The notes under the pieces were generated by a model that was not told where the DNA came from, searched no databases, and saw nothing but the letters and a program-made list of their open reading frames with translations. DNA of 64,000 bases from Neorhizobium vignae. GTDB lineage: Bacteria; Pseudomonadota; Alphaproteobacteria; Rhizobiales; Rhizobiaceae. Both the position numbers and the translations under genes were made by a program. The DNA is taken from NCBI RefSeq assembly GCF_000732195.1, contig NZ_JNNU01000015.1:1-64000 (forward strand), in the 5' to 3' direction. Shown one piece after another: positions 7,646 through 57,175 of the stretch (position 1 is its first letter; each line of letters begins with the position of its first letter).

Positions 7646-7709
7646 GGCGGCAATATATGTCGGCCTCAGTTCCATGATTAGCCATTGCAATTCGCTTGGA
7701 CTTATCGAT

Positions 7710-7723
7710 GATTGACATCAATC
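7710..7723. promoter_or_regulatory. Palindrome in the MFS/LysR divergent promoter
   Basis: GATTGA-CA-TCAATC is a perfect 6+2+6 inverted repeat lying between the divergent MFS and LysR genes, 19 bp before the LysR start. Position and symmetry fit a LysR-family binding site, although the classic T-N11-A spacing is not exact. Confidence 0.4.
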
Positions 7724-7742: not shown

Positions 7743-8630
7743 ATGAAGCGGGAAGATCTCAACGACATGCTTTGGTTTCTGGCGGTTGCGGAAGAGCGGA
7801 GCTTTACGAAGGCGGCTGCGAAACTTGGCACATCGCAATCGACGATCAGTCATACGATCAAGAAGCTCGAAATGCGATTGGGACTGCGCCTTCTGACCCG
7901 GACCACCCGCAGCGTCGTCCCGACGCAAGCGGGTGAGCGGCTCATCCGCTCGCTTGCACCGCGAATTGCAGAACTCGAAACCGAAATCGACGAGCTGATG
8001 GAAATCAGGGACAAGCCCTCGGGATCCGTGCGGATAACACTGTCGGATCATGCATTGCAAAGCGTCGTCTGGCCGAAACTGCGTCCGGTCCTGCGGGACT
8101 ATCCCGATATCAAGGTCGAGCTGAACAGCGATAACGGTTTCAGGAACATCGTCGAAGAGAAGTTCGACGCGGGCGTACGCCTCGGCGAGAGCGTGGACAA
8201 GGATATGATTGCGGTTCGAATAGGGCCTGATTGGCGCCTGGTCGCCGTTGGGTCTCCCAAGTATTTCGCGGCCCGCTCGGTTCCTGAAACACCGCCGGAT
8301 CTGGTCGGTCATGACTGTATCAACCATAGGCAGTCGCAGTTGGGCGGTTTGTACGGCTGGGAGTTTGAGAAGGATGGTCGGGAGCTTCGGGTGCGCGTTG
8401 CCGGACAACTGACGTTCAACACCTCCTATGCCATGATCGACGCTGCCGTCAGCGGCTACGGCATCGCCTATGTGCCTGAGAACCTCGTTGAGCGGGAACT
8501 CGCTTCCGGACAATTGGTGCAGGTTCTCGATGACTGGACGCCGCCGTTTCCCGGATATTACCTCTACTACCCCAGCAGGCGACAGAATTCGCCGGCGTTC
8601 AAGGTTGTTGTTGAAGCACTCCGCGGCTGA
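7743..8630 (+). CDS. LysR-family transcriptional regulator
   Basis: A 295-residue LysR-type regulator. Residues 1-66 form the winged helix-turn-helix (FLAVAEERSFTKAAAKLGTS followed by QSTISHTIKKLE), a linker helix follows, and residues 90-295 are the periplasmic-binding-like effector domain (SGSVRITLSDHALQSVVWPK onward). Overall it belongs to the group regulating divergently placed transporters and small-molecule enzymes. The neighbouring MFS exporter and Tat-exported hydrolase are the natural targets. The effector is unknown. The 218 nt that follow to the TetR gene contain nothing convincing. Confidence 0.88.
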   Translation: MKREDLNDMLWFLAVAEERSFTKAAAKLGTSQSTISHTIKKLEMRLGLRLLTRTTRSVVPTQAGERLIRSLAPRIAELETEIDELMEIRDKPSGSVRITLSDHALQSVVWPKLRPVLRDYPDIKVELNSDNGFRNIVEEKFDAGVRLGESVDKDMIAVRIGPDWRLVAVGSPKYFAARSVPETPPDLVGHDCINHRQSQLGGLYGWEFEKDGRELRVRVAGQLTFNTSYAMIDAAVSGYGIAYVPENLVERELASGQLVQVLDDWTPPFPGYYLYYPSRRQNSPAFKVVVEALRG

Positions 8631-27178: not shown

Positions 27179-27255
27179 GAATATGAATATAACGAGAGTG
27201 CCCATCGTTGTTGCAGACAATCTCCAGCTGCGACGAGGCCATTTCGAACGTTGAC

Positions 27256-27276
27256 TGCAATTAAGTCCCATTCGCA
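27256..27276. promoter_or_regulatory. Mur-box-like palindrome 2 upstream of sitA
   Basis: TGCAATT-N7-ATTCGCA repeats the left arm and spacing of the site at 27158 with a partly degenerate right arm. It ends 13 nt before the sitA start, so a bound repressor would block the transcript start or early elongation. Confidence 0.55.
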
Positions 27277-27289
27277 AAAGGAGGCGTGC

Positions 27290-28204
27290 ATGCTTGAAAA
27301 GATACGATGGCTGGTCCTGACCGGAATGGTGGGGACGGCGTTCGCCGCCGTTCTGACGGCAATGCCGGCATCGGCTCAGGACAAGTTCAAGGCGGTGACG
27401 ACTTTCACGGTGATCGCCGACATTGCGAAAAACGTCGCCGGCGACGCCGCAGTCGTCGAATCCATTACCAAGCCCGGCGCGGAAATACACAACTACCAGC
27501 CGACACCCGGCGACATCCAGCGGGCGCAGGGCGCCAAGCTCGTCTTCTGGAACGGGCTCAATCTCGAGCTCTGGTTCGAGAAGTTCTTTCAGAACTTGAA
27601 GGACGTGCCGGGCGTCGTGGTCTCGACAGGCGTCGAGCCGATGGGCATCGCCGAAGGCCCGTATGTGGGCAAGCCCAACCCGCATGCCTGGATGTCTCCC
27701 ACCGCGGCGCTGATCTATGTCGACAACATCCGCGATGCCTTCGTGAAGTACGATCCGAAGAGTGCCGCGACCTACAAGGCCAATGCGGAATCCTACAAGC
27801 AGAAGATCAAGGCGGCCATAGATCCCATCAAGGCCGAACTCGCCAAGGTGCCGGAGGACAAGCGGTGGCTTGTGACGAGCGAAGGCGCCTTCTCCTATCT
27901 CGCCCGCGATTTCGGCTTGAAGGAGTTTTATCTGTGGCCGATCAATGCAGACCAGCAGGGCACACCGCAGCAGGTTCGCAAGGTGATCGACGCCGTTCGG
28001 AAGAACCGGATCGGTGTCGTTTTCTCGGAGAGTACGATTTCGTCGAAGCCAGCCGAACAGGTGGCGCGGGAAACCGGCGCCAAATACGGCGGCGTTCTTT
28101 ACGTGGATTCGCTGAGCGAGGCCGATGGCCCGGTTCCGACATATCTCGATCTGCTGAAGGTAACTTCGGATACTATCGCCAAGGGCCTGGTCGTCTCGCA
28201 GTGA
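27290..28204 (+). CDS. sitA: Manganese/iron ABC transporter substrate-binding protein
   Basis: A 304-residue cluster A-I (ZnuA/TroA/SitA) binding protein. AAGGAGG sets the start at 27290; the signal peptide ends near ASAQ. The four metal-ligand regions are visible: EIHNYQPTPGD at about 67-77 (His), GKPNPHAWMSPTAAL at about 127-141 (His), VTSEGAFSYLARDFG at about 197-211 (Glu) and FSESTISSKPAEQ near 247-259 with the final Asp in YVDSLSEADGP. There is no His-rich loop, which fits Mn/Fe rather than Zn uptake. First gene of sitABCD with two Mur-like boxes upstream. Confidence 0.92.
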   Translation: MLEKIRWLVLTGMVGTAFAAVLTAMPASAQDKFKAVTTFTVIADIAKNVAGDAAVVESITKPGAEIHNYQPTPGDIQRAQGAKLVFWNGLNLELWFEKFFQNLKDVPGVVVSTGVEPMGIAEGPYVGKPNPHAWMSPTAALIYVDNIRDAFVKYDPKSAATYKANAESYKQKIKAAIDPIKAELAKVPEDKRWLVTSEGAFSYLARDFGLKEFYLWPINADQQGTPQQVRKVIDAVRKNRIGVVFSESTISSKPAEQVARETGAKYGGVLYVDSLSEADGPVPTYLDLLKVTSDTIAKGLVVSQ

Positions 28205-28273
28205 TTCTGGTCGTGCGCCCATTCGCGACCCGGCGGGCGGGCTGCATTTGTCGTTTTCAAGAGGATGTTTCCA

Positions 28274-29173
28274 ATGAATGCTCAACCCCCTTGGCCGAAC
28301 CATGCTCCTTCCGGGTCTGACGGAATCATGGTCGACGGCGCGACCGTAACCTACCGCAACGGCCATACGGCCCTGCGGGATGCGAGCTTCCGCATCCCGC
28401 AGGGAACGATCACCGCTCTGGTGGGGGTCAACGGTTCCGGCAAATCCACGCTGTTCAAGGCGATCATGGGTTTTGTGCGCCTGGCGAAAGGCGACATCCG
28501 GGTGCTCGGCATGTCGGTCAAGGAGGCGCTGCGCAAGAACCTCGTCGCCTATGTGCCGCAGTCGGAAGACGTCGACTGGGACTTTCCGGTGCTGGTCGAG
28601 GATGTCGTCATGATGGGCCGCTACGGCCATATGGGCATGATGCGCATTCCAAAAGCCGCCGATCACGAGGCCGTGGCGACGGCGCTAGCCCGTGTCAGCA
28701 TGAGCGAATTCCGCAAGCGCCAGATCGGAGAGTTGTCGGGCGGGCAGAAGAAGCGGATTTTCCTGGCGCGTGCACTGGCGCAGGACGGTCGCGTCATCAT
28801 GCTCGATGAGCCCTTCACCGGCGTTGACGTCAAGACGGAGGACCAGATCATCACCTTGCTTCGCGAGTTGCGCGACGAGGGCCGGGTCATGCTGGTCTCC
28901 ACGCACAATCTGGGCTCGGTGCCGGAATTCTGCGACCGGACCATCCTGATCAAGGGGACGGTGCTCGCCCATGGGCCGACTGTCGAGACCTTTACCCAGG
29001 AAAACCTGGAAAAGACCTTCGGCGGCGTGCTGCGTCATTTTGTGCTCAACGACGCGCAGAACGGAAGATCGACGTCGATCGGCCTGCTCAGCGACGATGA
29101 GCGGCCCTTGGTGCTTCGAGGCGGGAAGGCGACCAACCGTGCATCGGACGAGGAAGGCGGAGGCCGCGAATGA
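28274..29173 (+). CDS. sitB: Manganese/iron ABC transporter ATPase
   Basis: A 299-residue ATPase. Start 28274 is chosen over 28265 because only it has a purine-rich site (AGAGGA) at proper spacing. Walker A GVNGSGKST at about 48-56, Q-loop VPQSEDVDWDFP at about 93-104, signature ELSGGQKKR at about 154-162 and Walker B RVIMLDEPFTGVD at about 174-186. The C-terminal 50 residues are a Ser/Arg/Glu-rich extension usual for SitB. It overlaps sitC by 4 nt. Confidence 0.93.
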   Translation: MNAQPPWPNHAPSGSDGIMVDGATVTYRNGHTALRDASFRIPQGTITALVGVNGSGKSTLFKAIMGFVRLAKGDIRVLGMSVKEALRKNLVAYVPQSEDVDWDFPVLVEDVVMMGRYGHMGMMRIPKAADHEAVATALARVSMSEFRKRQIGELSGGQKKRIFLARALAQDGRVIMLDEPFTGVDVKTEDQIITLLRELRDEGRVMLVSTHNLGSVPEFCDRTILIKGTVLAHGPTVETFTQENLEKTFGGVLRHFVLNDAQNGRSTSIGLLSDDERPLVLRGGKATNRASDEEGGGRE

Positions 29174-30030
29174 TCGCCGTTCTTATCGAACCCTTCACCT
29201 ACAGCTATATGCTGAATGCCATGTGGGTCTCGGCCCTTGTCGGCGGCGTCTGCGCCTTCCTTTCCTGTTACCTGATGCTGAAAGGCTGGTCGCTGATCGG
29301 GGATGCGCTCTCGCATTCGATCGTTCCCGGCGTGGCAGGCGCCTATATGCTCGGACTTCCGTTTTCAATAGGCGCCTTTTTCTCCGGAGGGCTCGCTGCG
29401 GCCACGATGCTTTTCCTCAACCAGCGCACCAAGCTGAAGGAAGATGCCATCATCGGCCTGATCTTCTCCTCCTTCTTCGGGCTGGGGTTGTTCATGATCT
29501 CCCTGAAGCCCATGGCGGTGAACATCCAGACGATCGTGCTCGGCAACATCCTCGCCATCACGCCCGAGGACACGCTGCAACTCGCGATCATCGGCTTCGT
29601 GTCGCTGGCAGTTCTGCTCGTCAAATGGAAGGATCTGATGGTCACCTTCTTCGACGAGAGCCACGCCCGATCGATCGGCCTCAATCCGACCGCGCTCAAG
29701 ATCGTCTTCTTCACTCTGCTGTCGGCTTCGACGGTCGCCGCGCTCCAGACGGTCGGTGCCTTCCTGGTCGTCTGCATGGTGGTCACGCCGGGGGCGACCG
29801 CCTACCTCCTGACCGACCGTTTCCCGCGCCTCCTCGTTCTGGCGGTGATCATCGGGTCGATCACCAGCTTTGTCGGCGCCTATGCGAGTTATTTCCTCGA
29901 CGGGGCGACCGGCGGCATTATCGTGGTGATGCAGACGGCAATCTTCCTGATCGCATTCGTGCTGGCGCCGAAGCACGGGATCCTGGCGGCGCGCAGGCGG
30001 GCAGCCCAGGCACTGGAGGCAGGGTCATGA
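29170..30030 (+). CDS. sitC: Manganese/iron ABC transporter permease 1
   Basis: A 286-residue ABC-3 family permease with about eight membrane segments: start LIEPFTYSYMLNAMWVSALV, conserved LKGWSLIGDALSHSIVPGVA at about 40-59 (the ABC-3 signature) and cytoplasmic coupling segment PTALKIVFFTLLSAST at about 175-190. Overlaps sitB and sitD by 4 nt each, so translation of the operon is coupled. Paralogous to SitD. Confidence 0.93.
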   Translation: MIAVLIEPFTYSYMLNAMWVSALVGGVCAFLSCYLMLKGWSLIGDALSHSIVPGVAGAYMLGLPFSIGAFFSGGLAAATMLFLNQRTKLKEDAIIGLIFSSFFGLGLFMISLKPMAVNIQTIVLGNILAITPEDTLQLAIIGFVSLAVLLVKWKDLMVTFFDESHARSIGLNPTALKIVFFTLLSASTVAALQTVGAFLVVCMVVTPGATAYLLTDRFPRLLVLAVIIGSITSFVGAYASYFLDGATGGIIVVMQTAIFLIAFVLAPKHGILAARRRAAQALEAGS

Positions 30031-30872
30031 CCATTGTCGATACGCTTCTTTCACCGTTCCAGTTCGGCTTCATGGTCAATGCGCTGCTGATCTCGGTGCT
30101 GATTGCCGTGCCGATGGCTCTTCTGTCCTGCTTCCTTGTCTTGAAGGGCTGGTCGTTGATGGGTGATGCGATCAGCCATGCCGTGTTTCCCGGCGTGGTG
30201 ATCGCCTATATCGTCGGTATGCCTCTTGCGATCGGCGCTTTCGCAGCCGGCATGTTCTGCGCCATCGCGACCGGTTTCCTGAAGGACAACAGCCGCATCA
30301 AGCAGGATACGGTGATGGGCATCGTGTTCGCCGGCATGTTCGGGCTCGGCCTCGTCCTTTATGTGAAGATCCAGTCCGACGTGCATCTCGATCATATCCT
30401 GTTCGGCGACATGCTCGGCGTCTCCTGGCGTGACATCGCAGAGGCGGCCGTCATCGCGGCGATCACGGCCGGCATTCTCGGCGTGAAATGGAAGGACTTC
30501 CTGCTGCACGCCTTCGATCCGGCGCAGGCAAGGGCCGTGGGACTGAGGGTCAATTTCCTGCATTACGGTCTTCTCGCTCTCATCTCGCTGACGATCGTCG
30601 GTGCCCTGCAGGCGGTCGGCATCATCCTTTCGATCGCCATGCTGATCGCGCCGGGGGCCATCGCCTTCCTGCTGACCCGCAAGTTCAGCACCATGCTGGT
30701 CCTGTCCATCGCCATTGCCGTGGCCGGTTCGTTCGCCGGCGTCTATCTGTCCTTCTTCATCGACAGTGCCCCGGCCCCGACCATCGTGCTCCTGATGGCA
30801 ATCGGTTTCGTGCTCGCCTTCATCCACGCTACGCGCAAGGCGGCCCGGGTCGAGACGACCGAAACGATCTAG
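30027..30872 (+). CDS. sitD: Manganese/iron ABC transporter permease 2
   Basis: A 281-residue ABC-3 permease beginning MTIVDTLLSPFQFGFMVNAL, with LKGWSLMGDAISHAVFPGVV at about 38-57 and LHYGLLALISLTIVGALQAV at about 178-197. The start is fixed by the ATGA overlap with sitC; a much longer open frame reaching back to 28971 runs through sitB and sitC out of frame and is not real. Pairs with SitC as the membrane channel. No terminator is obvious after it. Confidence 0.93.
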   Translation: MTIVDTLLSPFQFGFMVNALLISVLIAVPMALLSCFLVLKGWSLMGDAISHAVFPGVVIAYIVGMPLAIGAFAAGMFCAIATGFLKDNSRIKQDTVMGIVFAGMFGLGLVLYVKIQSDVHLDHILFGDMLGVSWRDIAEAAVIAAITAGILGVKWKDFLLHAFDPAQARAVGLRVNFLHYGLLALISLTIVGALQAVGIILSIAMLIAPGAIAFLLTRKFSTMLVLSIAIAVAGSFAGVYLSFFIDSAPAPTIVLLMAIGFVLAFIHATRKAARVETTETI

Positions 30873-30978
30873 CGAGAGGGAGACAGCGCCTCCGCCGGCC
30901 GCGGCCACGCCGAACCTGAGTTGATCATCCGGCCTTTGTCGGCCATGTGTAGGCGCAGCCGCTCGACGCAAGCCGGAG

Positions 30979-30992
30979 TTGACGCGCATCAA
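30979..30992. promoter_or_regulatory. FNR/FixK-type anaerobox upstream of the copper genes
   Basis: TTGACGCGCATCAA matches the TTGAT-N4-ATCAA consensus at 9 of 10 positions. A CATAGA -10-like element lies at about 31014-31019, which puts a start site about 41 bp downstream of the box centre, the spacing of FNR-activated promoters. The next gene starts at 31096. Confidence 0.6.
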
Positions 30993-31095
30993 AGAGCGCT
31001 GTGGCGGAAGGGCGCATAGACAGAACTGACTGTGCCGTGCCAATAACGGACGTTCAGGTCGGACATCGCCGGCCGACCGCAACTGATGAGGGACC

Positions 31096-31482
31096 GTGAA
31101 GAACCGCAGAGCACCTGCCTGGAGTGTTGTGTTCGCGTCGATCGCGGCCTATGCGCTCGTCGTGCAGATGGTGCTTGGCTCCGTCCTTCTCGGTTCAGCG
31201 GTTGCGGGGCCTGTCGTCGATGATTTTGGAAACCCGCTTTGCATTACCCATGCGGGCGGCAGCGGCCAATCCGATCACAAGGACGGCCCAAAACTGCCCG
31301 AGTGCTGCACCCAGGCATGCAGCGTTCTCGCTCCGGTGCTCGCGCCGCAGTTTTCCGACAATTTTCTGAGCAACCGGCTGGAGGCCACCGCCACGCCGGT
31401 TCCGGCCGAAGCGGATACAGGTCCCTTCGAACGCCCCGAGACCTCTCCCGGAAACCCCCGCGCGCCGCCCCGGGCAGCCTGA
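31096..31482 (+). CDS. DUF2946-type copper-associated small protein
   Basis: A 128-residue protein starting at GTG after GAGGG. A hydrophobic N-terminal segment at about 10-38 is a signal or anchor. The following region, CITHAGGSGQSDHKDGPKLP and ECCTQACSVLAP at about 49-79, has the closely spaced Cys and His residues of DUF2946 proteins, which occur next to YcnI, CopC/CopD and TonB-type copper genes. The Pro/Ala-rich tail is not conserved-looking. It is first in the copper group and nearest the anaerobox. Probably a periplasm-facing copper-binding protein; binding is inferred. Confidence 0.65.
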   Translation: MKNRRAPAWSVVFASIAAYALVVQMVLGSVLLGSAVAGPVVDDFGNPLCITHAGGSGQSDHKDGPKLPECCTQACSVLAPVLAPQFSDNFLSNRLEATATPVPAEADTGPFERPETSPGNPRAPPRAA

Positions 31483-31732
31483 AAGCTTGCCGCGCAGGCG
31501 AATCCGAAGGATCGCAAGGCGCTTCAGGTCGGGCACCCCCCGTTTCGTGAACGTTTCGGCCAAACGGCAATGACGCGGCATAAGCCGTGTATCGCGCCCC
31601 GGCGGCCAGCGGGCTCGGAGCCAAGGGCAGATCGCCTTTTCAAACCATCAATCCACCCGGACCGGCGCCTTCACGGCTGCTCGGCACCTGAAAATCGGGC
31701 CGTCCAACGCGCGGCCAAGCATGGAGATTCAC

Positions 31733-32260
31733 ATGTTGAAGAAAATCACGACAACCGCCGCCATCCTCGTGGTCGGCAGCACCGCCGCTCTGGCGCATGT
31801 CACCCTGGAAGCAAAGGAAGCTCCTCTAGGCTCGACCTACAAGGCGGTGCTGCGCGTGCCGCACGGTTGCGAGGGCAAGCCGACGAACACCGTGCGCGTC
31901 CAGATCCCGGAAGGCTTCTACGGAGTGAAGCCGCAGCCTAAGGCCGGATGGACGCTCGACAAGGTCAAGGGCGCCTATGCCAAGGCCTACGACAATCACG
32001 GCTCTCCCGTCACCGAAGGGGTCAAGGAAGTGGTCTGGAGCGGCGGCAGCCTCGGCGACGACGAGTATGACGAGTTCGTGCTGCGGGGCACGATTGCCGC
32101 GGACCTGAAAGCCGGCGACATGCTCTATTTCCCGGTGATCCAGGAATGCCCGGAAGGCCTCAAGGAACGCTGGATCGAATTGCCGGCCGCAGGCCAGAAG
32201 GCTTCGGATCTCGAACTCCCAGCCCCCGGCGTCAAGCTTCTTCAGAAGGCTGGCAACTAA
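31733..32260 (+). CDS. YcnI-family (DUF1775) copper-binding protein
   Basis: A 175-residue exported protein. Start 31733 follows GGAG; the signal peptide ends ALA so that mature residue 1 is His in HVTLEAKEAPLG. That N-terminal His, with the conserved Trp in KAGWTLDKVKG and a nearby Glu, is the copper site described for YcnI. The domain is full length (VRVQIPEGFYGVKP, GGSLGDDEYDEF, MLYFPVIQECPEG). It precedes the CopC-CopD fusion by 31 nt. The 250 nt between DUF2946 and this gene hold no gene, so it could have its own promoter. It acts as a periplasmic copper chaperone for import. Confidence 0.85.
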   Translation: MLKKITTTAAILVVGSTAALAHVTLEAKEAPLGSTYKAVLRVPHGCEGKPTNTVRVQIPEGFYGVKPQPKAGWTLDKVKGAYAKAYDNHGSPVTEGVKEVVWSGGSLGDDEYDEFVLRGTIAADLKAGDMLYFPVIQECPEGLKERWIELPAAGQKASDLELPAPGVKLLQKAGN

Positions 32261-32291
32261 GCGATCCATCCACTCCGGAGCATGAAGGCCG

Positions 32292-33908
32292 ATGACGCCG
32301 CTTTGCTACAAGGCACTTTCACTGACCGGCACTCTGCAGCGGTTCGTGTCCGCGATCCTGCTGTGGTCGGTCATGACGGCGGCGGCATACGCCCATGCGT
32401 CCCTCAACACGACCGAGCCGCGCGATGGCTCGGTCGTGTCCGTTGCCCCGCGCGTGATCACCCTGATGTTCAGCGAGCCCGTTTCGCCGACCAGCCTCAG
32501 GCTCACGCGGCCGGACCGCAGTTCAGTCAATCTCAAAAACTTCGTCCTGAAGGACAGTACGGTCGAGATTACCCCGCCGGACGACCTTTTGGACGGGAGC
32601 TATCTTCTCTCCTGGCGGGTCGTTTCAGAAGATGGCCACCCGATCGGCGGCTCGGTCGTCTTCTCGATCGGACAGCCGAATGCCAACGCTCGGGGCGCTG
32701 CTGCGGATATCGACTGGCCAGTCCGCGCCGGTCTCTGGGCCGGCAAGATAGCGCTCTATATCGGTCTCTTCCTGGGCGTCGGCGGGGTGTTTGCCATTCA
32801 CTGGTTCGCGGACGGTTCCGGGAAGGCACTGAGGCAGACCGCAGTCACCCTTGGCGTCGGCTTCGTGGGTGCGCTGCTTTCGGCCGGCTTCCAGGGTCTC
32901 GATACGGTTGGCGAGCCCATTTCGCGGCTCTTTGCACCGGCTGTCTGGAAGGCGGGAATGACCACGAGCTTCGGGCCGACGGTCATTTTTGCGATCGCGG
33001 CGCTGGCGCTTGCGGGGCTTGCTCTGGCAAGCGGCCGGGGCAGGGACGCCCGCTGGATCTCCATATCAGCCCTCGTCACGGCGGCATTTGCCCTTAGCCT
33101 CAGCGGTCATGCGAGTGCGGCAGACCCGCAATGGCTGATGCGCCCGGCCGTTTTCCTGCATGTTGCGGCCATAGCTGTCTGGGCCGGCGCGCTGCTGCCG
33201 CTCCTGGCCGAGTTCGGAAAAGACAAAGAAGCGGCCGGCGCGGCATTGCACCGCTTCTCGGTCTTCATACCATGGGCCGTCCTGGTCCTTGCCCTGGCGG
33301 GCGGCGTGCTCGCCGTCGTTCAGGTCCGCACTCCAGCTGGACTGGTGACGACGGCGTATGGGATCGTATTCCTCGTCAAGCTCGGGCTGCTCGTCCTGCT
33401 GTTTGCCCTGGCAGCCGTCAACCGGTGGAAACTCACCTCCGGTTCGAAGAAGGGAGAGCCTGCAGCGATCCGCCAGCTCGTTCGTTCGATCGCTGCGGAG
33501 ACCGTCATCCTGCTCCTCGTCTTCGCGGTGGCTGCGACGTGGCGCTTCACGCCGCCCCCACGCACCTTGATCGCCGACGTCCAGAAGACTGCCGTGGTTC
33601 ACTTGGAGACCAGTAAGGCAGTGGCTGAGGTTAAGATCACGCCGGACAGGGTAGGGGAGGTCGCGATATCCGCGGCCATCGCCAAAAGCGACCGGTCGCC
33701 GCTCGATCCGCAGGAGGTGACGGTTGTGCTGTCGAACCCGGGGGCGGAGATCGAGCCGATCAGGCGGAAGGCCGAGAAAGGTAAGGACGGCTGGGCGGTG
33801 CCCGATATCGTGCTTCCTGTTCCCGGGCGGTGGCGGCTGCGCCTTGACGTGATCATCAGCGATTTTGAAATCACCAGGATGGAAGGCGAGATCGAAATCG
33901 CACCGTGA
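32292..33908 (+). CDS. Copper importer, CopC-CopD-YtkA-like fusion (YcnJ-type)
   Basis: A 538-residue membrane protein with three parts. Residues 1-34 are a signal peptide ending AYA, so mature residue 1 is His (HASLNTTEPRDGS). Residues 35-130 form a CopC beta-barrel with VVSEDGHPIGGSVVFSIG carrying the second copper ligand region. Residues 145-430 are a CopD membrane domain with about eight helices. Residues 450-538 are a soluble domain like YtkA/FixH (AEVKITPDRVGEVAISAAIA ... LPVPGRWRLRLDV). The same fusion, YcnJ, imports copper in Bacillus. With YcnI and an upstream anaerobox this looks like copper supply for low-oxygen enzymes. Confidence 0.85.
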   Translation: MTPLCYKALSLTGTLQRFVSAILLWSVMTAAAYAHASLNTTEPRDGSVVSVAPRVITLMFSEPVSPTSLRLTRPDRSSVNLKNFVLKDSTVEITPPDDLLDGSYLLSWRVVSEDGHPIGGSVVFSIGQPNANARGAAADIDWPVRAGLWAGKIALYIGLFLGVGGVFAIHWFADGSGKALRQTAVTLGVGFVGALLSAGFQGLDTVGEPISRLFAPAVWKAGMTTSFGPTVIFAIAALALAGLALASGRGRDARWISISALVTAAFALSLSGHASAADPQWLMRPAVFLHVAAIAVWAGALLPLLAEFGKDKEAAGAALHRFSVFIPWAVLVLALAGGVLAVVQVRTPAGLVTTAYGIVFLVKLGLLVLLFALAAVNRWKLTSGSKKGEPAAIRQLVRSIAAETVILLLVFAVAATWRFTPPPRTLIADVQKTAVVHLETSKAVAEVKITPDRVGEVAISAAIAKSDRSPLDPQEVTVVLSNPGAEIEPIRRKAEKGKDGWAVPDIVLPVPGRWRLRLDVIISDFEITRMEGEIEIAP

Positions 33909-33959
33909 CCAAGCGCCGGCCGGATGTTTCTCCAGGGCTGAGCATCTGTAAGCCAGTTC

Positions 33960-34126
33960 TTACTCTTCCACCTGCCGCCGCACGCTGGTCAGCATTCGAG
34001 GACAAAGAGGCCGAAACCGGCAAGCCATGCGGCGCCGGACAGTGAATAGATCAGGCTCGTAAATTCCGGAAAAGCCCGGCGCTTGGCCAGCCGCGGCCTG
34101 GCCGTCCCTGCCGCCCTCCTGATTTA
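33960..34126 (-). pseudogene. Decayed C-terminal fragment of an nnrS-like gene
   Basis: On the minus strand an open stretch reads RPRLAKRRAFPEFTSLIYSL followed by SGAAWLAGFGLFVLE and then hits a TGA. One base out of frame the sequence continues MLTSVRRQVEE and stops at 33960-33962. Together they look like the last membrane helix and tail of NnrS (…WxxxFGLFxxxYGPML…), with about 10 nt lost where Tyr-Gly-Pro would be. NnrS is a haem/copper membrane protein tied to nitric-oxide stress and commonly sits near hemN and nnrR. The upstream part of the gene is absent. This is recognition from memory over a short stretch. Confidence 0.45.
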
Positions 34127-34148
34127 GCAACGGCGCATCCGGGGAAAG

Positions 34149-34203
34149 TTGCGTCGGGACAAATATTTTGCAGAAAGAGGACGCTGTCGTTGATTTCGCA
34201 CAA
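34149..34203. promoter_or_regulatory. Possible anaeroboxes upstream of hemN
   Basis: Two TTG-N8-CAA elements: TTGCGTCGGGACAA (34149-34162) and TTGATTTCGCACAA (34190-34203). The second keeps the full left half TTGAT and the CAA of the right half, 58 bp before the hemN start. FNR/FixK control of hemN is usual in rhizobia, but these matches are imperfect. Confidence 0.35.
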
Positions 34204-34261
34204 AGAGAGGCGGCCGCGGGGCAGATAGATGCTTTCCGATGAAAACTGGAAAGGAGCCCAT

Positions 34262-35614
34262 ATGTCCGCGGCGATAATCGAGAAATATGGCGATGCGCGG
34301 TTGCCGCGCTACACGAGCTATCCGACGGCTCCGAACTTCAGCTCGGATTTCGACGCCCTCGACTATCCGGTCTGGCTCAAGCGGCTGCCCGAAGGACAAC
34401 CGACCTCGCTCTATATCCACATTCCCTTCTGTCGGTCGATGTGCTGGTATTGCGGCTGTCACACGACGATCACCGAGCGCGACAGGCCCATTCTCGACTA
34501 TATCGAGATCTTGCACCGGGAGATCGAGCTTCTGGCATCCGCTCGAGCCGACAGCTTCAGCCTCGGGGAAATCCATTTCGGCGGCGGCACGCCGACGATC
34601 ATCAAGCCGGATGAATTCATCGCGCTGATGGATGCGTTTCGCAACCGTCTCGGTTTTGCAAAGGTGGTCAATGCGGCGGTCGAAATCGATCCGCGCACCT
34701 TGACCCGAGAGATGGCGATGGCGCTCGGGGAGTCGGGCGTCACCCGCGCGAGCCTAGGCGTCCAGAGCTTCGACCCGACGGTCCAGAAGGCGATCAACCG
34801 CGTCCAGAGCGTCGAGACGACGATGGATGCGGTGGAGCATCTTCGCCATAACGACATCAACGCGATCAACTTCGACCTGATCTACGGGCTGCCGTTTCAG
34901 ACCGTCGAATCCTGCGTCGAGACGGTCGAAGCGGCCGTCAGCATGCGGCCGGACCGTCTTGCCGTCTTCGGTTACGCGCATGTCCCGAGCTTCAAGAAAC
35001 ACCAGCGTCTCATCGACGAGGCGGCGCTTCCCGACGCACGGGAGCGCGCGCTTCAGGCATCCGCGATATCAGACGCCCTGGTGGCGGCGGGCTATGTCAG
35101 GATCGGCCTCGATCATTTCGCGCTGCCCGGTGACGAGCTCTCGCTTGCGCAGGCCGAAGGCCGGCTGCACCGGAATTTCCAAGGGTACACGACGGATGCC
35201 TGCGAGGCGCTGATCGGGCTCGGTGCCTCCTCGATCGGCCGGTTGCCGCAGGGATATATCCAGAACGAGGTTCCGCCCGGCCTCTATGCGACGCGGGTTT
35301 CGAAAGGCGAACTGCCGGTCGCCAAGGGCTATCGCCTCACACTGGAAGACCGTCTGCGCGGCGAGGTGATCGAAAGGCTGATGTGCGACTTCGCGGTGGA
35401 TGTCGCCGCACTTGCGGCGGCGCACGGCTTCGATGCCGACCTTCTGTTGCGGGGCAATGATCGGCTGGATGAGCTTGAACGGGACGGGCTGATCGAGCGT
35501 CAGGGCGGGAATATCCGCGTCTCGGAGGATCACCGGTTCATCGTCAGAGCCGCAGCCTCCGCGTTCGATGCCTATCTGAACAAGAGCGGCAGGTCCTTCA
35601 GCAAGGCGGCATAG
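34262..35614 (+). CDS. hemN: Oxygen-independent coproporphyrinogen III dehydrogenase
   Basis: A 450-residue radical SAM enzyme of HemN length. AAGGAG sets the start at 34262, giving MSAAIIEKYGDARLPRYTSY, the true HemN N-terminus with the RYTSYPTAP motif. The [4Fe-4S]/SAM site is HIPFCRSMCWYCGCHT at about 58-73 (C-x3-C-x2-C plus the fourth Cys that marks genuine HemN). IHFGGGTPT follows at about 113-121, and QGYTTDACEALIGLGASSIG at about 314-333. It oxidises coproporphyrinogen III without O2, allowing haem synthesis under low oxygen. Neighbouring copper genes and DUF6522 fit a microaerobic or denitrification setting. Confidence 0.95.
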   Translation: MSAAIIEKYGDARLPRYTSYPTAPNFSSDFDALDYPVWLKRLPEGQPTSLYIHIPFCRSMCWYCGCHTTITERDRPILDYIEILHREIELLASARADSFSLGEIHFGGGTPTIIKPDEFIALMDAFRNRLGFAKVVNAAVEIDPRTLTREMAMALGESGVTRASLGVQSFDPTVQKAINRVQSVETTMDAVEHLRHNDINAINFDLIYGLPFQTVESCVETVEAAVSMRPDRLAVFGYAHVPSFKKHQRLIDEAALPDARERALQASAISDALVAAGYVRIGLDHFALPGDELSLAQAEGRLHRNFQGYTTDACEALIGLGASSIGRLPQGYIQNEVPPGLYATRVSKGELPVAKGYRLTLEDRLRGEVIERLMCDFAVDVAALAAAHGFDADLLLRGNDRLDELERDGLIERQGGNIRVSEDHRFIVRAAASAFDAYLNKSGRSFSKAA

Positions 35615-56645: not shown

Positions 56646-56659
56646 TTGTCGTACGTCAA
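56646..56659. promoter_or_regulatory. FNR/NnrR-type box upstream of pseudoazurin
   Basis: TTGTCGTACGTCAA is a near-perfect TTG-N8-CAA palindrome. A TAGTGT -10-like element at 56681-56686 would start transcription about 41 bp from the box centre, the spacing used by FNR/NnrR-family activators. Pseudoazurin genes are commonly under this control. Confidence 0.5.
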
Positions 56660-56728: not shown

Positions 56729-57175
56729 ATGAAGAAGATTTTGGCATCCCTGGTCGGTGCGGTGATCGCCACGGCCGTCTGCGCCACGGCGGCGTCGGCC
56801 GCCGATTTCGAAGTGCATATGCTCAACAAGGGCAATGACGGCGCGATGGTATTCGAACCGAGCTCCCTCAAGATTGCCAAGGGCGACACCGTTACCTTCG
56901 TCCCGACCGACAAATCTCACAACGCCGAAACCATCGACGGCCTGATCCCGGAAGGCGCAAAGCCGTTCAAGGGCCAGATGAATGAAAGCGTGAAGATCAC
57001 GTTCGACGTCGAGGGGGCCTATGCCGTGAAATGCGCGCCACACGTGGGCATGGGCATGATCGGCCTTGTCGTTGTCGGCAACGCTCCTGCCAATGTGGAA
57101 GCCATCAAGACCGCGAAACTGCCCAAGAAGGCGCGCGAACGTCTCGACGCGGATATCGCTGCTTCCGGCGTTTAA
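56729..57175 (+). CDS. Pseudoazurin (type I copper protein)
   Basis: A 148-residue exported blue copper protein. The signal peptide ends ASA before [11 protein letters not shown]. All four copper ligands are present: His in DKSHNAE at about 70, then Cys and His in [11 protein letters not shown] at about 109-119 with Met at its end. [17 protein letters not shown] and [11 protein letters not shown] are typical. It carries electrons in the periplasm to copper nitrite reductase, N2O reductase or cytochrome c peroxidase. None of these enzymes is in the window. Single-gene unit with AAGGAG start and its own promoter. Confidence 0.93.

Follow-up and report, generated by a model that had tools for sequence, protein, structure and literature searches.

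The window analysed here is a stretch of 64,000 nucleotides (nt) of Neorhizobium vignae (contig NZ_JNNU01000015.1 of assembly GCF_000732195.1, positions 1 to 64,000), and the system in question is a putative copper import operon, ycnI-copCD, with the DNA in front of it. A sequence-only reading of this locus had described a nine-of-ten match to the FNR/FixK anaerobox with a correctly spaced -10-like element, upstream of a DUF2946 gene, a YcnI-type gene and a gene for a CopC-CopD-YtkA fusion. It had proposed that the operon is under low-oxygen control and supplies copper to low-oxygen cuproenzymes, with a nearby pseudoazurin as one of the possible recipients. The features of the locus are as follows.

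30979..30992, forward strand: FNR/FixK-type box TTGACGCGCATCAA, matching the anaerobox at 9 of 10 positions and kept in 13 of 15 congeneric loci
31015..31020, forward strand: -10-like element CATAGA, 22 nt past the box, present in all 13 boxed congeneric loci
31096..31482, forward strand: CruR/CutF-like leader open reading frame (ORF), DUF2946-like, with an export-like segment, CCTQAC, 46 residues, RAPP and 3 residues to the stop
31400..31479, forward strand: stretch with C in excess over G at the leader 3' end (37 C versus 22 G in 80 nt), candidate rut region
31483..31732, forward strand: long gap between leader and ycnI, of varying length among relatives and ordinary fold
31733..32260, forward strand: ycnI (DUF1775), periplasmic copper protein, with ATG at 31733 and GGAG before it
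32292..33908, forward strand: copC-copD fusion (YcnJ-like), candidate copper importer, with CopC and CopD domain matches

The YcnI-type protein was confirmed by profile search, in which the ORF at 31721-32260 matched DUF1775 with 157 bits; the ATG at 31733, chosen by eye, is the likelier start instead of 31721. This DUF1775 protein adjoins the CopC-CopD protein, as expected of YcnI/YcnJ copper import. The fusion was supported for its CopC and CopD parts but not for YtkA, since the C-terminal 115 amino acids of CopCD match no YtkA model at E-values up to 1; the same segment gives a weak match to FixH (E 0.063), below the cut-off. A DUF2946-like ORF is indeed found in front of ycnI, but it looks like a leader and not like one more gene of the operon. 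The named loci found are six Neorhizobium or Rhizobium records, sharing 75-91% identity over CopCD.

The anaerobox claimed for the locus is present. TTGACGCGCATCAA differs by one mismatch from TTGAT-N4-ATCAA, the anaerobox as defined in PMC7888657, and it fits the TTGA-N6-TCAA box type. CATAGA starts 22 nt after the box, which is the spacing of an activator site centred at -41.5 (class II), and a transcription start is predicted near position 31027. Across the window, 27 matches with at most two mismatches to the box were found (18.2 expected; 5 of 100 shuffles reach 27), four of them with one mismatch. A lone box of such quality is little proof, and it is conservation that decides. In an alignment of seven upstream regions, window included, the box is kept in all seven and, together with the next 40 nt or so, hardly varies; the DNA in front of it diverges. 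A search of 57 congeneric genomes showed a ycnI of the same type (at least 65% identity) in 15, that of the window among them; in 13 of these 15 loci, again counting the window, the box is accompanied by GCGCATAGACA at equal distance, with CATAGA 22 nt on. GCGCATAGACA stands at every one of the 13 congeneric loci that carry the box, and this lends the putative assignment of CATAGA as the -10 element its support. The two loci lacking the box are G250 and G234. At G250 (L247, 2455-2531), a tRNA-Arg gene lies just before the expected site and the box is lost; the leader and ycnI remain, and the stretch after the lost box is still recognisable by eye.

To place this arrangement in a wider context, 187 distinct ycnI loci were surveyed: the window, 89 of 93 places in the family, 31 extra congeneric loci, 61 of 72 loci from outside the family and 5 further in-family loci. 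The four family places left out were short partial matches, and the outside-family and five in-family loci came from a search of the order. Thirteen duplicate loci were dropped, six of them being records that apparently repeat genomes of the genus, as judged by leader text and spacing. To count as a leader, an ORF had to end no more than 450 nt from ycnI and to have a C-terminal R-any-P-P with a cysteine motif 38-55 residues ahead of it. Such a leader is present at 100 of the 187 loci (75 RAPP, 24 RGPP and 1 RSPP); the control search, done on the set with duplicates, gave 1 in 200 on the opposite strand and 0 in 200 downstream. The scan for TTGM-N6-KCAA, the FixK2 consensus of PMC9104804, ran between -650 and -330 relative to the leader stop and so took in the promoter together with the first codons. 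This pattern lies before 41 of the 100 leaders, while spacers of 2, 3, 4, 5, 7, 8, 9 and 10 give 0 to 3. At loci without a near leader it was detected in 1 of 87 (330 nt before ycnI; other spacers 0 to 4). The difference has a Fisher p of 2.5e-12, to be read with the relatedness of the loci and with a comparison stretch that differs in kind, as promoters there may lie further upstream; the 87 also include L174, whose leader was missed because its stop lies further on, and at least eight loci with a RAPP ORF more than 450 nt upstream.

The pairing held when redundancy was reduced. Among leader clusters at 65% identity, 23 of 66 carry the box (other spacers 0 to 3), and with one locus per cluster the count is 20 of 66; simulated sequence gives 2.0 on average and 7 at most. 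The sites are also narrowly placed, 45 of 50 sitting -510 to -441 from the leader stop (set with duplicates). Both kinds of operon take part: the box was found at 25 of 49 loci with a ycnI of at least 53% identity and at 16 of 51 below that value, and all ten boxed loci of this second kind that were tested encode a DUF1775-PCuAC fusion. The genus sample has the box in 19 of 33 leader loci (with duplicates). The pairing of box and leader is recurrent, not universal. AGA frequently comes right after the box (CAAAGA) in leader operons that are not otherwise related, for example at L041, L062, L077, L179, L181 and L270.

The same class of box and candidate regulators were sought in the whole genome. 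The pattern TTGAYNNNNRTCAA has 48 sites in 6.34 Mb, and the backward-read control has 3. Besides that of the window, 31 sites are intergenic according to a rough gene caller, which may miss or invent genes. Genes adjoining the sites include, above NCBIfam cut-offs, ccoN, a pseudoazurin, 5-aminolevulinate synthase and ccmC, and below them an OmpW-like gene and a pyruvate phosphate dikinase (cut off by the stretch). The pseudoazurin preceded by a full box is a second one, on contig C2, and not that of the window. A FixL-like kinase is found at C9, and two ORFs separate it from a FixK-like gene; another FixK-like gene, with a PAS kinase after it, lies at C18 beside a copper P-type ATPase and fixNOP (cbb3). 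The FixL match and both FixK matches are below NCBIfam equivalog cut-offs. A Crp-family gene with its own box is located at C2:306808. No FnrN-type N-terminal cysteine cluster was seen by eye in six Crp-family proteins, of 22 matches listed. Low-oxygen control of the ycnI-copCD promoter is well supported as a prediction, because of the conservation and spacing of the box, the FixL- and FixK-like genes, and the sibling boxes before ccoN and a pseudoazurin.

Other genes of the window were viewed for similar elements. A metal ABC transporter operon (27251-30872) lies directly upstream on the same strand and ends 106 nt before the box; its first gene belongs to the ZnuA family, and the remaining genes were judged by eye. 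The next gene downstream is hemN (34262-35614), preceded by TTGATTTCGCACAA at 34190-34203, then AGAGAGGCGG, with GATAGA 20 nt on. This upstream element much resembles the copper promoter, and it is near-identical in two of six named loci scanned (L005 and L007). The pseudoazurin of the window (56729-57175) has no TTGM-N6-KCAA in the 340 nt upstream; TTGTCGTACGTCAA at 56646-56659, followed by AGAGGG, is a looser TTG-N8-CAA site. A further one-mismatch box, ATGATTGACATCAA, lies at 7708-7721, 21 nt before a gene predicted at 7743.

The first gene of the copper operon, as the operon is judged from gene order, could give clues to a second level of control. It is an ORF of 128 amino acids whose N-terminal export-like segment was recognised by eye, and it looks like a copper-sensing leader of the CruR/CutF type. 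CruR, a DUF2946 protein of Bordetella pertussis, is described in passages of PMC9426467 as a copper-responsive upstream ORF in which RAPP stalls the ribosome; once copper occupies its CXXC motif the arrest is lifted, and Rho terminates the transcript ahead of the following gene. In CruR, 45 residues separate CXXC from RAPP, and RAPP stands three residues before the end. The same passages place CruR homologues at the head of operons with YcnI, CopC and PCuAC, one of them heading a copper-starvation operon of B. japonicum, and RAPP and RGPP are, according to PMC12992588, strong arrest motifs that small ORFs in front of ycnI and PCuAC genes contain more often than expected. Like CruR of cruR-bfrG, the ORF studied here is a first gene, small and apparently exported; its cysteine motif precedes RAPP by about 45 residues, three more residues lead to the stop, and a C-rich region and a long gap to the next gene are likewise present. 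The gap to the ycnI ORF is 238 nt (250 nt to the ATG at 31733), ranging from 207 to 301 nt in the seven aligned relatives, and of 111 leaders (set still with duplicates) 108 contain more C than G over their last 150 nt. CutF of Rhodobacter capsulatus cutFOG (PMC9973294) is also similar, with CxxxC, an export signal, a proline-rich end and a position upstream of copper genes; there, copper switches a periplasmic multicopper oxidase on via a stem-loop at the ribosome site. Such a stem-loop over the ycnI ribosome site was considered and rejected, as none is evident by eye and shuffled sequences fold as well as the gap does (z-score -0.38). The present locus thus differs from CutF by its long gap without an evident stem-loop. 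The C-rich leader 3' end, the long gap to ycnI and the ordinary gap fold favour the CruR direction, in which copper would turn the operon off.

Two further ORFs of this type occur in the same genome. A second RAPP leader (L154 1163-1621, C7) has CEVC, ends in RSRAPPISI and stands before a PCuAC gene (141.6 bits); TTGACCTAATGCAA lies 487 nt before its stop, and its DUF2946 score is 12.8 bits. A third DUF2946-like ORF (L155, C24, about 5 kb; 15.3 bits) has CCTDYC, ends in HRPPNI and precedes an outer-membrane channel-like gene, as judged by eye; it is perhaps a copper efflux leader.

Taken together, these data lead us to propose, with a probability of about 0.62, that two gates in series precede ycnI-copCD, oxygen being read at the promoter by a FixK-type activator and copper at the nascent leader in a CruR-like manner. 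From the site, its spacing and its conservation, an activator of the FixK type, itself under FixL or a hybrid FixL, would bind the box at 30979 at low oxygen and start transcription near 31027. By analogy with CruR, the leader would then be translated; when copper is scarce, the ribosome would stall at the RAPP end and shield the C-rich 3' end from Rho, so that transcription could continue into ycnI-copCD. Copper bound to the nascent CCxxxC would instead relieve stalling and let Rho end transcription. Following the B. subtilis proteins, Cu(II) would be handed on by YcnI to CopCD, through its CopC part, and CopCD would import copper for cbb3 oxidase and other low-oxygen cuproenzymes. The net effect would be an operon that requires both low oxygen and low copper. 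Since the DUF2946-like ORF looks like a copper-sensing leader, the operon would not simply have been moved from copper to oxygen control; of the low-oxygen control proposed from the sequence alone, the promoter part stands as a prediction, and the operon appears to obey both signals.

A number of results weigh against this proposal. CATAGA has the spacing expected of a -10 element, yet agrees with TATAAT at just 3 of 6 positions, and no promoter came out of a sigma-70 scan over 30850-34300. The box, looked for at orthologous promoters as the sequence-only reading had suggested, is kept in the genus and recurs among leader clusters, but it is lacking at 59 of the 100 leaders; in the family sample it precedes 18 of 53 leader loci and is absent from 35. 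The refuting condition set by that reading, a missing box at orthologous promoters, is thereby partly borne out. Outside the family it was found at 4 of 18 leader loci (other spacers 0 to 2), a single genus accounting for three of these four, and eight loci with a RAPP ORF 650-1410 nt before ycnI, counted among the 87, have no box. Many boxes outside the genus are TTGC/GCAA forms without an assigned regulator, and the pattern itself does not separate FixK, NnrR and other FNR-family sites. In the genome, 16 of the 47 other box-class sites fall within genes predicted by the rough caller, and several site neighbours have no known oxygen link (a choline sulfatase, a 3-oxoadipate enol-lactonase and an O-acetylhomoserine enzyme); not every site therefore need be a target. 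The leader scores 21.2 bits to DUF2946, under the Pfam cut-off of 23.7, and its cysteine motif is CxxxC, the form of CutF, where copper acts oppositely, rather than the CXXC of CruR. We therefore name it CruR/CutF-like and not a CruR.

This motif is the main point in favour of another scenario, in which the box works but the leader is CutF-like: copper would strengthen stalling and turn the operon on, and YcnI-CopCD would serve copper handling or tolerance and not uptake. The names CopC and CopD were originally given in connection with copper resistance, and the Pfam name of CopD agrees, which also counts for it. We hold it to be unlikely, given that RAPP with three residues after it, the C-rich 3' end and the gap of 238-250 nt are CruR-like, that the gap folds no better than shuffles and shows no clear shielding stem by eye, and that, according to PMC13344008, YcnI and YcnJ support growth of B. 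subtilis under copper limitation. Slightly less probable is the binding of the box by another FNR-family member (NnrR/DNR or FtrB type, for example the protein at C2:307 kb), responding to nitric oxide or another signal, or repressing. The TTG-N8-CAA outline is common to the FNR family, and the Crp-family gene on C2 has a box of its own. The box-to--10 spacing is, however, that of activation, sibling boxes precede cbb3 and haem genes, and the genome contains FixL- and FixK-like genes.

The box could finally be there by chance, the promoter being driven by something else and the leader alone controlling the operon. A single box matching at 9 of 10 positions is not rare, and the unboxed majority of leader loci in the family sample agrees with this view. 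It is nevertheless highly improbable in our estimation, since 13 of 15 congeners retain the box in spite of divergence in the preceding DNA, and since it recurs in a spacer-specific way at 23 of 66 clusters. We thus retain the two gates in series, oxygen at the promoter and copper at the leader.

Each half of this arrangement has been published on its own: ycnI preceded by a CruR leader, and a PCuAC operon under FixK2 control. Apart from having CCxxxC for CXXC and ycnI-copCD for a TonB transporter, the locus differs from CruR by the FNR/FixK box in front, of which the CruR passages of PMC9426467 make no mention. In Bradyrhizobium diazoefficiens, expression of bsr7087-blr7088 (PCuAC) is lowered 53.8- and 8.1-fold without FixK2 (PMC9104804, Table 2). 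The resemblance lies in a copper operon, in this case for a chaperone, that has a FixK2 box (TTGC-N6-GCAA) and hemN2 as its neighbour. Its candidate relatives differ from the present locus: no convincing RAPP leader was found at eight PCuAC loci in six genomes of one genus taken as Bradyrhizobium-like. The Bacillus subtilis ycnKJI operon shares a YcnI and a CopC-CopD protein linked to copper starvation; YcnI binds Cu(II) (PMC8424229), and YcnJ has a role in oxidase function when copper is lacking (PMC13344008). It differs in being under the repressor YcnK and in the YtkA domain of YcnJ, which is not supported here. In a reconstruction of FixK/FnrN regulons in Alphaproteobacteria, the word copper is absent from the main text (PMC4999443). 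A DUF2946 or RAPP leader joined to FNR or FixK appears in no title or abstract among the matches listed, in a search with subscription papers and preprints outside its scope.

For the family as a whole, we see about even chances that RAPP/RGPP leaders of Rhizobiaceae, and perhaps of a family next to it, have repeatedly acquired an FNR/FixK box in front, forming an oxygen-AND-copper gate in two operon types (ycnI-copCD and ycnI-PCuAC fusions). This possibility suggests a joint re-reading of published FixK regulons and CruR-type operons. If such a gate is real, the promoter would read respiratory demand and the nascent peptide would read copper supply, two sensors acting at two levels, DNA and nascent peptide, within one short leader. 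The acquisition of a toxic metal would then be tied to the moment when low-oxygen enzymes need copper.

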